Positions 3,001-7,353 of a stretch of DNA of 64,000 nucleotides are shown in pieces. Source of the DNA: Acidobacteriota bacterium (GTDB lineage: Bacteria; Acidobacteriota; UBA4820); assembly GCA_029559035.1 (NCBI GenBank), contig JAKQCT010000003.1, positions 1 to 64,000 on the forward strand. The letters are read 5' to 3'. A model generated the notes under the pieces. That model was not told where the DNA came from and made no database searches. It saw only the letters and a list, made by a program, of their open reading frames with translations. Numbering within the stretch: position 1 is the stretch's first letter; the number at the start of each line of letters is the position of its first letter. The translations under genes and the position numbers were made by a program.

Positions 3001-3508
3001 CATTGCCATATTCCGCTTTGATATTGGATCCATCCAAGGTAATTCCATTGATCTCATCGGCCATATACAAAGCATGGGGCGTTCCATCAGCGTCATAATA
3101 AGTCAAATTGCACCCACCACAAATCGGGCTGCCACCTGAATTATCATTTGGTGCGTATTGTGGTAATGCAGTCAAAGCGCCATAAAATACGGTCCACCCA
3201 CCGGCGTTGTCAAATCCAAAAGCTTCCCCCGATCCCGGTCCCATATACCTCAGCTTGGCTTGGAAGGAGAGTTCAGGGCCCACAGGTATCGCCGGGCCTA
3301 TCGGGTAAATGACCGTCAAGTTGCCGTTGTAGATGTTCACGTTCTCATTTTCGCTTATCGTCGCAAAGGGCATCTGGGGAACAAATCCCGGCGCCGCTGT
3401 CCACGAGTCTGAGTAAGATGGCCCGGTAGCTTGGGCAAAAGAAGAAGTAAAAGCAAATGCGAAAACCAACACCATCCCCAGAACTTTTAAATAATTCTTT
3501 CCGTGCAT
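1..3508 (-). CDS. Secreted RHS/YD-repeat protein, incomplete (C-terminus lies beyond the left edge)
   Basis: Reverse-complement reading from ATG at 3508 (SD GGAGGAGG upstream) gives MHGKNYLKVLGMVLVFAFAFTSSFAQA (signal peptide). Spot-checked segments remain in the same frame: YDSSPGDIVNPVRVVSNTW near 2040, GISQFLETALHNGIDENPE near 1560, NGLVTIDNPLDPYDGYDVW near 298. YD-type motifs appear toward position 1. Absent from the ORF track because no stop codon is reached in the window. Confidence 0.85.
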   Translation of the reverse strand, partial: MHGKNYLKVLGMVLVFAFAFTSSFAQATGPSYSDSWTAAPGFVPQMPFATISENENVNIYNGNLTVIYPIGPAIPVGPELSFQAKLRYMGPGSGEAFGFDNAGGWTVFYGALTALPQYAPNDNSGGSPICGGCNLTYYDADGTPHALYMADEINGITLDGSNIKAEYGNGVWILYYPDGKIVELADSLARDTVPCSGCPGYTADKTWAVTKVSDRFGNSYSIVNQLFVDMLTNVQRFNITSIYDSSPNNNSGRGIYFDYSSSPTGYITNLLSSISVPVPYLNGGNPGYADYYFNFTTLQGQSSSSVARLSRIDFPKAKITDSNNLFMSFSYYSHDPSIPGFDEKGSALQRITYPTGGYTQYDYASYIYDFNTSYYPKPDTQQPGQSVKVKWVGGFGVTTVKKNDGTNNTVRQWERFDMQYINPNSTTCDDFGFAQETLPDGQKILHLYKIPTSKQGGAGYELYTLYFANDSAFSWERARRFAYNTYSGCSYDSSPGDIVNPVRVVSNTWKRMAFSGIPNANYSENWQVIDSKTEEKNSSSGSTLAWSEVRNAIWDGHGHFLLTSDTGSHIQAGQPPYKITIRQYIPPHASANLRNREEFEATFYSATPPPTQFAGILPDDCADCGNDPSPSPSYDISVADDASAKKVVTAGISQFLETALHNGIDENPELNNTGSADKRIALAIPTTISFSLKNKISDPTPTNYNYLYWEGFGNAQNYMASSDDWVETRTYNLTDATNKQYRGTIEEIHLAYKGDTSKGVKYEYEYGVVKSKQFLGMGYKEAERSIDPNTGMILSEHDANGIGAGYSYDNLLRLTKIAPTQSEAAEYIWYPVEGGYTKRIEYGRGYNPDPTGENHTLGNLATHKVFHFDGLGRLTKSKEIMADGSYSVVEKAYDPNGREFFVSEPFKEGDVSRTGYVSFDDANVIYALTSLPRKNGDFLFGTASSIYPGFSYSATSGQLTLSGQPDPLGRVMKVIKPDGNYTDTTYDGYNYTVALHNIEGVTGNSLTTYEKDAFGRLVFVDAPNNDNIKSADAEYFYDSQDRLVKVDLDGQIRTFTYDNLGFLTSSENPENGLVTIDNPLDPYDGYDVWGNILRYQDANGVAGGYKIKNTYDAKGRIRVKEKIDASGNFLARLNEWIYDGASNKGLGKLSFAKTTDESTFAEIHESYDY

Positions 3509-3539
3509 CCTGTTCCTCCTCCATTACCCGTATGGCTCC

Positions 3540-3567
3540 AATCTACACCGAAAAATATATTTGTCAA
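3540..3567 (-). promoter_or_regulatory. Sigma-70-like promoter for the RHS gene
   Basis: Minus strand TTGACA (3567-3562), 16-nt spacer, TAGATT (3545-3540), then a short leader with GGAGGAGG before ATG 3508. Confidence 0.55.
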
Positions 3568-3781
3568 CGTGCACTGAGTTCCATTTTGTTTCAGGTGATT
3601 AACGCATCTTTGAAAGGGTTTCGGGGTGTCGTTCCAAATGACACGGTGAAGGGGTATTATATTGCTTCGCTAGGCGTGAGCCTTATGGCGGAAGACTGAT
3701 GATCCAGTAGAAAATCGTCATTTATTTTCTTTTTTTTGGTTTGTTGCCTGGATTGCAAAGTGGGATGCTGTTTATAAAGCA

Positions 3782-3807
3782 AGCCCCCGCCGTTGCCGGC
3801 GGGGGCT
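3782..3807 (-). terminator. Stem-loop terminator downstream of the 3826-4584 gene
   Basis: Perfect 10-bp stem AGCCCCCGCC-GTTGCC-GGCGGGGGCT just past the minus-strand stop codon. Confidence 0.6.
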
Positions 3808-3825
3808 GCTGCAACTGTCTCCCGT

Positions 3826-4584
3826 CTAGCTTAACTTCTCAAGGACGGGAGTCTCCTTTTTAGGGAGAACTATTGGCGGGGGCTGGACTGCGGTTTTCCG
3901 CCTCCGGATTGTTGGGATCAGGTCCTTGAACCTGAGGGCGATCACCGGCTCGGTGTCCATGAACTGCAAGTATCCTGCGGTGGCGATCTCTTTGATCGCC
4001 TTCTCGACCCTCAACTGGAGGATGTTCTTCTCTGTCGTGAGGATCTTCTTGTGCTTCATCCCGCTGTCCTGGCTCTCGCGAGCGGCCTTGAGGTCGTCAA
4101 GGATGGCCTGCCCGTTGCTGATGTCGGAATCAAGGACGCCGCACGCCTGAAGGTCGCCGGGCGATTCCGCCGCCACCTTGAGTATCTGCTCGATAGCCGC
4201 GACGACGGCGGCAGAGCGGCTTGAGTAAAGCCTCTCTCCGACACCAACCGCCTTGCAGAGGCCTGGCGCCCCGTCCCGCTTCTTGACGGCTTCCCGTATG
4301 GCGGCAACCCAAAGGGCTCCCATCTTCGAGATGCTTTCTTCGGCGTCTGTCAGGGATTTGACGTCTATCTTGTTGGCTTCCCTTCCGGTGAACAGCCCCT
4401 CAAGGGCGGTTATGTCGCTCGGGAAAGCGTCGAGGAGGCCTTCCGGGAGCCTCGGTTCAAGCTCCCTCCTTCTGCCTTCCAGCAGGGAAACGGTCTCTTT
4501 TGCAAGTTGAAGGGCGTGCGAGATAGTGTATCTGGTATTGATTGACTTGTAGCTCATCGATCTTGGTCCTTTCTCCACAGACAT
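3826..4584 (-). CDS. Hypothetical protein, predicted helical
   Basis: 252-aa ORF, MSVEKGPRSMSYKSINTRYTISHALQLAKETVSLLEGRRRELEPRLPEG..., followed by a terminator. No family recognised. Start could be the internal ATG (MSYKS). Confidence 0.6.
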   Translation of the reverse strand: MSVEKGPRSMSYKSINTRYTISHALQLAKETVSLLEGRRRELEPRLPEGLLDAFPSDITALEGLFTGREANKIDVKSLTDAEESISKMGALWVAAIREAVKKRDGAPGLCKAVGVGERLYSSRSAAVVAAIEQILKVAAESPGDLQACGVLDSDISNGQAILDDLKAARESQDSGMKHKKILTTEKNILQLRVEKAIKEIATAGYLQFMDTEPVIALRFKDLIPTIRRRKTAVQPPPIVLPKKETPVLEKLS

Positions 4585-4802
4585 TTATCGTCTGTGGTGA
4601 ACATATCCTTATTTTTGCCCGCCTGTCACCCATTTCCCCCTGTCGGTTGGTGAGGGCACGAAAGGAAGAGAAATGAAGGAAACAGGCTTCCAGTTGGTCG
4701 ATTTGTTGCCGGATCGGCGCGTTTTATTGCGGCGGGGGGCGCTCGAACAAAACGGCATATTTGAATATGTCCTTTAATATCTTGATGATAAGACTATATT
4801 CA

Positions 4803-5117
4803 GGTTTCCCGGCAACAACCGCCAACCTATTTTTGCAAATGTACAGAGGCCAAATACAAACCGCCAGAGTATTTTTAAAAATGTCCGGGCTTGTTTGAGA
4901 AAGCGCCAACCATTCGGGAAAAATGTCCAATGTATTTTGAGAAATGTCCGGAGTCTCCGGAAAAACCGCCAGGGCTTCAAGCGTAATGTCCACTGTTTCG
5001 GGACAAATGTCCGCCCTTCTAACAGAAATGTCCGGGCTTTCAACAAAAACCGCCGGGGTTCTTTTGAAAACCGGCAGGATCTTCCGTGCAATGTCCCACA
5101 AGCCGGGAAAAATGGCC
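4803..5117. repeat. 15 tandem degenerate 21-nt units (heptapeptide-encoding in several frames)
   Basis: Unit ends (tgtcc or ccgcc, or near variants) fall at 4823, 4844, 4865, 4886, 4907, 4928, 4949, 4970, 4991, 5012, 5033, 5054, 5075, 5096 and 5117, exactly 21 nt apart. Confidence 0.9.
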
Positions 5118-5388
5118 GCAAGAACGGATGAATTGTCGCTATTGTTTTTGAAAGGGGGGATGGGACAGCCTGCCTGTTGCCTTTCTTTCAGACTGCCGGG
5201 GGCGGAACGGGTTGTTTGCGCGCTTCCTTTTCTCAATCTACGGCCCGGACATCACTCTTCCGCTCCTCCTGAGGCGCCAATTGCGCCCGACCCATGCAAC
5301 CGCACCATGCGGCTACACATATATTATACAACCTTACCTGGCACAATCCGTGCTACAGGTACTGATGTTGGGGAAAGACTAAGACAAA

Positions 5389-5413
5389 GGGCGGGTTTCG
5401 AGCCCGCCCCTAC
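5389..5413 (-). repeat. Intergenic palindromic element, GTAGGGGCG...CGCCC type
   Basis: Minus strand GTAGGGGCGGGCTCGAAACCCGCCC; same architecture as 16863-16887. Confidence 0.6.
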
Positions 5414-5478
5414 ATTCATTTTTCAAATTTTCTTTTACAATACAGACGCGCTTGCGCTGACAACATTCAGGAAACATA

Positions 5479-6369
5479 TCAGAGTTTTTTGCTCGGCTTG
5501 AGATATATCTTCTTATTGGCGTAATCAAGGATGAAGTTGAAATGCATGAGGGCGCCGCAGCCGAGGATGGCGTCCGCTTCCTTCTGCTTAGAGCGGCTTT
5601 GGGACGCGACGGCGGCATCCACATCATTCAGCTCGTAGGGGCCTATGATCAGTTTCTTTATGTGACAGCTTTTTCCCTTGACATCCCCGCTCAGCCCCCT
5701 GCCGAGGACGGTTTCTACGGTCTTTTCGGGAGTTTTGAATTTCATCCCCTTCTTCTCGATGAGAACTATCGGCGTTGAGTCGGCGAAGTCGATGTAAACA
5801 GACAACTTTACAGGCTTCTCTCCGGCGACCGAGACGGACGCGTCGATCCAGGGGGTCATGTTCTCCTTGAAATATAGAGGAAGCTCCGTCCAGCTCTTGT
5901 CCGGCTTGAAGCCCTGCCCGTGGAGCAGCATCACGCCCCTGTCGTAGTCGAATTCGGTGACAAAGTGGCCGAACAGGGAATAGCCTATCGCTCCGTTCGA
6001 GGGAAACCCCTTGAAGCCGTCGCCCCTGAGGACTATGACCATCTGTTCCGGCAATTTGACGCTTCCCGCGGTAACATTGGACGACCTTATTACCAAAGCG
6101 TCGCTATCCTTCCCGCTCCCGGCCCCGCCTATCCTGGCGCTCGCCGCTCCTTCGAGGTTCAGTTTTTCCCTGATCTCGGGGTTGTAAACGAGTATCCCGT
6201 CGTATGAAAAGCCGGTGTCGAGGATAATGTCGGGGATGACGATTCCGTCAACTGACAGAGTGATCAAGGTCTTGTCGTGTTTCAAGGCGATGGGTATTTC
6301 AGGCGGCGCCTGGCAGAACGCGGCCGAAAAAAATACTGCCAACAGAAGAAATAACGCCTTTGCTTTCAT
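5479..6369 (-). CDS. Secreted retropepsin-like aspartyl protease family protein
   Basis: Signal peptide MKAKALFLLLAVFFSAAFCQ; catalytic-type motif VIPDIILDTGFSYDGILV; compact two-lobed layout. Confidence 0.7.
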   Translation of the reverse strand: MKAKALFLLLAVFFSAAFCQAPPEIPIALKHDKTLITLSVDGIVIPDIILDTGFSYDGILVYNPEIREKLNLEGAASARIGGAGSGKDSDALVIRSSNVTAGSVKLPEQMVIVLRGDGFKGFPSNGAIGYSLFGHFVTEFDYDRGVMLLHGQGFKPDKSWTELPLYFKENMTPWIDASVSVAGEKPVKLSVYIDFADSTPIVLIEKKGMKFKTPEKTVETVLGRGLSGDVKGKSCHIKKLIIGPYELNDVDAAVASQSRSKQKEADAILGCGALMHFNFILDYANKKIYLKPSKKL

Positions 6370-6475
6370 CAGATGCCTCCCGACGCCATGTTCATTTCAT
6401 CATCGGGTCTCGATTTTGTCAACAAGCACTTGCGGATAGGAGGCAGTGATACTAAAATGGTGCCGGAGGGCTCGC

Positions 6476-7168
6476 ATGATCTCTTCTAACTCATTCCAAT
6501 TCGACCGGCTGAAGTGCCTGAGACAATGGCTTTACCGTGAAGTCAAGATCGCGAAATATTCTTCCGTGCTCGACATCGGAGCGGGGGACCTGAGGATCAG
6601 CGCGGAGATCGCCGACCACATCAAGCACAAGGTCCACGCTCTCGACATGGTGAAGCCTCCCGTTGTCCCGAACAATGTCGTATTCGTGAAGGGCAAGGCG
6701 GAAAAACTGCTCTCCGACAGGGAAAAATTCGATGTGATAACGGCGAGCTTTTTTTATTTCTGGATAAAAGACCTTCCGTCGCTTCTCGGGAAGGCCAAGA
6801 AAGTCCTCAAGAAGGACGGCATCCTCATGTTCCTCTCGGAGCCGCAGTTCTCGGAGAGGGTCGACACGCCGGATTCGGGGCTCAACTCGGAGTTCAAGAA
6901 AGGCCTCAAGAAGATGGGAGCCAACCCCAACATCGAGAAGGCTCTCAAAGAATCCCTGGCCAAGGCGGGCTTCAAGGCGACATTCTTCAGGACCAACGAA
7001 AAGGTCGTCATCGAAAGGAAAGACGAAATAATGGAAGAGATCGAGTTCCTCTTCCGGAACGGGGCGATAAACCAGAAACAGAGGGACCTCATTACGAAGA
7101 AGGAACTGTCGTACGAGAGCAAGGAGGTGTTCGTCCCGATCGTCTACGGGTACGCTACACCGAACTGA
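6476..7168 (+). CDS. Class I SAM-dependent methyltransferase
   Basis: VLDIGAGDLRISAEIADHIKHKVHALDM motif I and FDVITASFFYFW region. ATG 6476 preceded by GGAGGG; the track start at 6446 is a GTG. Confidence 0.75.
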   Translation: MISSNSFQFDRLKCLRQWLYREVKIAKYSSVLDIGAGDLRISAEIADHIKHKVHALDMVKPPVVPNNVVFVKGKAEKLLSDREKFDVITASFFYFWIKDLPSLLGKAKKVLKKDGILMFLSEPQFSERVDTPDSGLNSEFKKGLKKMGANPNIEKALKESLAKAGFKATFFRTNEKVVIERKDEIMEEIEFLFRNGAINQKQRDLITKKELSYESKEVFVPIVYGYATPN

Positions 7169-7201: not shown

Positions 7202-7353
7202 ACAAGCTACGCTTTCATTTAGAATATTAAAGATTAAATTTCAAATTTTAAAATTGTGGAATCATTTCCTTATTGAACTTCAGTTCTTCAGCCTTCAGCC
7301 CCAGCTTGCGGCGCATTGAAAATTGAAAAATGAAGATTGAAAAGTGAAAAATG
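7202..7353 (+). repeat. Direct repeat copy 1 (non-coding, AT-rich, about 150 bp)
   Basis: ACAAGCTACGCTTTCATTTAGAATATTAAAG...GAAGATTGAAAAGTGAAAAA, nearly identical to 7412-7562. Confidence 0.9.

Follow-up and report, generated by a model that had tools for sequence, protein, structure and literature searches.

A 21-bp repeat array upstream of a gene for a helical protein

The window analysed here (a single stretch of DNA, 64 kb in length) carries at 4803..5117 an array of 15 direct repeats of 21 bp, which lies 5' (upstream) of its neighbour gene and is read on the minus strand in that gene's orientation, where the unit includes GGACATTT or GGCGGTTT. Mean identity between the units is ~50%. The preliminary description had called the array free of indels, and its units do end exactly at 4823, 4844 and so on to 5117. 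The array block contains 259 bits of period-21 information, as compared to a mean of 46 and a maximum of 86 in 2,000 Markov shuffles, and is the top period-21 block of the whole window. The further claim that each unit ends in one of two forms holds exactly for 11 of the 15 units, with AATGTCC in seven and AACCGCC in four, but fails for the other four, which end in AATGTAC, AAGCGCC, AACCGGC and AATGGCC. Nor is the existence of two linked unit forms unique to the window, as related arrays at L194, L202 and L158 alternate two unit types strictly. No DNA match to the array was found in the 59 other genomes of our phylum sample. Elsewhere in the window, at 7315-7350, the 7-nt sequence ATTGAAA is repeated in five copies.

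The neighbour gene (3826..4584, minus strand), the decisive context that the preliminary description overlooked, is a 252-aa ORF from ATG 4584, although the true start is more likely ATG 4557 (243 aa), which is preceded by AGAAAGGACC. Its product belongs to no Pfam, PHROG or PADLOC family (the best PADLOC match of its protein family has an E-value of 0.04, and none points convincingly to a known defence protein beside the array), and searches for a known DNA-binding domain or a confident fold match returned none. The gap between array and gene holds a weak sigma70-like promoter match on the minus strand (GTGACA-18-TATGTT, 9/12, 4600..4629); two promoter-like matches were found in the region against 0.8 expected from shuffles. 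Between this match and the start at 4557 lies an inverted repeat (4571..4601) with a 7-nt loop and 12-nt arms, TTCTCCACAGAC/GTCTGTGGTGAA, also given as CCACAGAC/GTCTGTGG; located directly upstream of the gene's ribosome site and near the predicted transcription start, it is a possible operator or leader hairpin. A terminator-like hairpin of 11 pairs (3782..3807, minus strand) directly past the gene end indicates that the gene is probably transcribed alone. Apart from a sub-threshold match at this hairpin, Rfam gave no match in 3400-6500, the array included.

Period-21 arrays beside two families of helical proteins

The window protein has four paralogs in its own genome and further relatives within its order, and a period-21 scan around these homologs located an array beside nearly each one, mostly with a unit of its own. 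Likeness between units is clear only among closer paralogs (0.58 for the window versus C88, 0.89 for C39 versus C87), and the gap from array to ATG is 82-251 nt in this family. Other genes separate the array from the family gene in C39 and C87: the order in C39 is array, a gene for a 1026-aa secreted protein, a 357-aa gene and the family gene, and it is the same in C87 except that the first gene encodes 1034 aa. The paralogous secreted proteins between array and family gene are encoded at L203 (5646-8750, 1034 aa) and L204 (6264-9344, 1026 aa), where the flanks are ~86% identical and the array units are reshuffled. Two weak profile matches, L171/L172, are arrayless and were judged to be due to chance.

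One homolog, L160, matches the PQLLE family (NCBIfam NF052641) weakly, scoring 22 bits where the cut-off is 80; the window protein itself gave no match to the PQLLE model at E ≤ 1, and so none at the curated 80-bit cut-off. We found PQLLE genes, which encode all-helical proteins of ~220-260 aa, in one genome of the window's order (the host genome has three members) and in an Aquimarina MAG, and then in more genomes of that MAG's order. A period-21 array lies directly 5' of 14 of the 15 full-length PQLLE genes in the latter order, with 6.9-13 bits per column versus ~4 at other periods. In a prospective test on six more above-cut-off PQLLE genes of the window's order, all six had the array, bringing PQLLE overall to 22 of 23 full-length members examined with an array directly 5'. 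For both families together the count is 29/32 full-length genes; two of the remaining three have an array 5' of their own gene cluster and one (L176/L180) is arrayless. The array is also present at L255, a sub-threshold relative (30 bits) from another family of the phylum; the period-21 scan found none at L251, L252 and L195. The NCBIfam entry for PQLLE is silent on arrays, and our literature search found no paper naming PQLLE. The linkage of gene and array recurs in two distant groups, the unit mostly changing from locus to locus, and suggests an undescribed kind of locus that pairs a protein with phased docking sites of its own.

A blind scan with a period-21 score cut of 6.5 covered 798.5 kb of the host genome, chosen by position, and yielded only two further arrays above the cut; no runner-up reached 5.9, and at the control periods of 19, 20, 22 and 23 the highest scores were 4.5-6.2. 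One of these arrays is 5' of a previously unknown PQLLE gene (179 bits): a period-21 scan can thus locate the genes, as it did blindly in this instance. The other is on the 3' side of a helical gene weakly similar to both families, ~95 nt away. At L228 (14217-14510) and L182 (312-494) the arrays follow the genes of other short helical proteins on their 3' side, which hints at another family whose array has the opposite placement.

Both families are predicted to be all-helical with no strand, and the order and lengths of the helices are alike in the two models: short, short, ~55, short, ~17, short, ~56 and short (in aa). The PQLLE protein is internally duplicated, its halves aligning at 98.8% probability (E 1e-16); in the window family the halves align at 2.0% probability, with the duplication not detectable by sequence. 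The two families match each other in the C-terminal half only (hhalign 67%, E 5e-5), and no structural relative with E < 0.001 was found in PDB or among viral models. Array similarity tracks protein identity across 23 loci (Mantel r = 0.68, p = 0.0002), with r = 0.76 within the flavobacterial loci, while the co-divergence disappears in the more diverged family of the window itself (r = 0.04). Units are common to close orthologs and mostly different among paralogs of one genome. The co-divergence of unit and protein may be plain co-inheritance.

Arrays of period 21 also occur in other settings. In 43 arrays elsewhere AAATGTCC is repeated at 21-nt spacing; no locus among them encodes the window's family, some fall inside genes for AlbA_2-like proteins, and outside the window's genome a degenerate pattern of this type is hardly commoner in the phylum than a reversed control, for which reasons we consider the octamer common to the window and these arrays to be probably due to chance and rejected kinship. 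We also rejected IS21/IS481-type transposon ends, as the rve genes of the 43-array genomes are not at the arrays. A Bacillus MAG, G297 (L065, L071, L082, L092, L101, L104), has at least 10 intergenic 21-nt arrays of GACTTTN7AAATGTCC, three of them with a common conserved left flank, and the window-family gene is absent beside them; these are possibly a separate array family.

A candidate operator and its alternatives

The units have a tendency towards dyad symmetry: similarity of a unit to its own reverse complement is 0.449 over 17 independent arrays, as compared to 0.370 ± 0.021 when 21-mers of identical column profile are drawn at random from the genome. Five PQLLE arrays of the window's order consist of two oppositely oriented halves, each in 21-nt register, and the spacings on the inverted side are mostly multiples of 21. 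Mirrored units of these inverted half-arrays are hardly more complementary than other units, which argues against a hairpin, and we rejected an RNA hairpin or cruciform on this ground. An inverted unit lies near the promoter at L188 and L190, and the longest phased arrays reach 28 units. Among the flavobacterial loci, a terminator hairpin stands ahead of the array in L185, L186, L189 and L193 (further off in L190 and L202), and a full predicted promoter, TTG-N18-23-TAnnTTTG, separates array and ATG in L188, L190, L191 and L200, TAnnTTTG being the -7 box of flavobacterial sigmaA (PMC9723704). This placement, after a terminator and before a promoter, counts for action as DNA over leader RNA.

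On balance, we favour reading the array as a non-coding, helically phased element of operator or iteron type that is probably bound by the encoded protein, because of its two-turn spacing, the dyad tendency of its units, the pseudo-dimeric protein and its place before a promoter. The preliminary description had offered a phase constraint of about two DNA turns, and this proposal is supported, being the best explanation left for a fixed spacing of 21 nt: a 21-bp repeat corresponds to two helical turns, and all sites are therefore on the same face of the helix. The array would consist of weakly dyad-symmetric sites in tandem, one per 21 bp, and would belong to the adjacent minus-strand gene. The encoded protein (~240 aa) would have two long helices (~55 aa) with short helices before and after each, and the duplication evident in PQLLE would make it a pseudo-dimer, one of which would occupy each unit, binding its own array cooperatively. 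Such binding would control the adjacent promoter (autoregulation), and the bound protein may perhaps build a larger nucleoprotein body. That the encoded protein is the array's ligand, and what its binding does, we infer. With a net charge of -3 to +3, several PQLLE proteins from the flavobacterial loci are neutral or slightly acidic, which is unusual for a DNA binder and counts against binding, as does the lack of a recognised DNA-binding domain; the arrays located 3' of a helical gene (L228, L182), the genes that intervene in C39 and C87 and the weak promoter match in the window count against the operator or iteron reading as a whole.

Plasmid-encoded ParRC systems and plasmid iterons are the nearest in function. 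Iterons of the R6K, RK2 and P1 type are helix-phased direct repeats of 17-22 bp beside the gene for their binding protein, with an inverted copy near the promoter, and the inverted units at L188 and L190 resemble this arrangement. The neighbouring protein, however, has no Rep domain, there is no replicon, and several different copies are chromosomal. In ParMRC, parC is a direct-repeat array with units of 10-20 bp upstream of the genes and is recognised exclusively by ParR of the cognate family (PMC9426499). Loci of the window type likewise have a direct-repeat array upstream of a gene, but they are chromosomal, with a fixed 21-bp spacing and a different, all-helical fold, and no ribbon-helix-helix protein was found beside the array (by Pfam, and by a prediction that is all helical with no strand). 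The protein families, the fixed 21-bp phase and the many locus-specific units fit neither ParRC nor plasmid iterons. The window protein also resembles PQLLE, with the same order of helix lengths and a 21-nt array directly 5'. No relative was present in 72,556 plasmid records, and we found no sign of phage or plasmid carriage. Our literature search, for which most subscription journals were beyond reach, found no description of such arrays.

With somewhat less than even confidence, we propose that this is an undescribed two-part locus of distant bacteria, in which a pseudo-dimeric helical protein of new fold is paired with a cognate, two-turn-phased 21-bp array, duplicated into several orthogonal pairs per genome, and that it represents a new class of sequence-specific DNA-binding or DNA-organising system. 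Taken together, array and gene point to a function for two protein families to which none is assigned, the array being the likely ligand; if confirmed, this would add a new DNA-binding fold and many natural cognate pairs of protein and site suited to deciphering a recognition code.

The main alternative is centromere-like: the array would be bound by the encoded or a host protein mainly as a chromosome anchor, with gene control secondary or absent. We consider this unlikely. Up to 28 phased units is long for a simple operator, plasmid parC offers a precedent of direct-repeat arrays upstream of par genes (PMC9426499), and both the inverted half-arrays and the several different arrays per genome would suit such a role. 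Among the ORFs that flank the arrays in the window and in L203, L204, L228 and L231, however, we noticed no ParM, ParA or TubZ-like motor gene on reading by eye, and the loci lie on chromosomes, with a patchy distribution among relatives.

Less probable again is an RNA role, in which transcription would yield the array as a leader or a separate RNA and the encoded protein or a host factor would recognise the 21-nt motif in that form. Only 34-38 nt separate the array from the ATG in L198 and L202, no promoter was found in this gap, and a promoter-like match lies ahead of the array, which may therefore be transcribed at these two loci; in the window family, with its longer gaps, the promoters are uncertain. 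Against this stand the flavobacterial loci with a terminator before the array and a predicted promoter after it, the inverted half-arrays without mirrored pairing, the lack of an Rfam match for the array and the strict two-turn spacing, which is unexpected for an RNA leader. Very improbable is a functionless satellite made by neutral slippage: while unit order and number do differ in close loci (C39 versus C87, L185 versus L186), as from unequal exchange, the arrays accompany genes of two families in two groups that are far apart, the period is conserved despite different units, diverged units keep register, and just two other arrays occur in 0.8 Mb of the host genome.

Open reading frames within the arrays

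The other option of the preliminary description, that the array is a gene for a heptapeptide-repeat protein under selection for its reading frame, is already disfavoured and, in our judgement, highly improbable. The ORFs it named are present (a minus-strand ORF of 170 aa from TTG, 4724-5236, and a plus-strand one from TTG 4895), and Asn recurs in 14 of the 15 units of the plus frame, very near what had been reported. The window locus has three open frames, open sense frames exceed column-shuffled controls in two of the seven window-family arrays (p = 0.024 for the window, p = 0.008 for L153), and a short IIKDIYRF-like stretch past the array is alike in three paralogs. When bases were permuted within unit columns and then translated, with positions 17-19 moved as a block, the array nevertheless showed no excess amino-acid similarity (p > 0.08 in every frame; z = 0.05 for the Asn frame) and no significant shortage of stops. 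An apparent coding signal in two frames is produced by the linked TGT/CCG change alone. The open frames of the window array are what its column composition permits.

No start codon with a ribosome site was found for any array frame, and the translated ORFs are without a family match, in agreement with the preliminary description on both points. Frames are not conserved across homologous loci: in our set of 23 related arrays (246 units), six lack an open frame on the strand of the gene, and the L196 and L198 arrays, as well as the Aquimarina array L183, have none in all six frames. The inverted half-arrays also speak against coding, as do one-base register shifts; a few of these, in L193, L197 and L188, mean that freedom from indels holds at the window itself and not throughout the related arrays. 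Short intergenic 'heptad-repeat ORFs' can therefore be translations of phased DNA arrays. In-frame 21-nt repeats inside coding sequence were observed in gammaproteobacterial AlbA_2-like genes (judged by eye; L062, L069, L076, L078 and L094), where they encode SSGHLxx heptads and contain GGACATTT.
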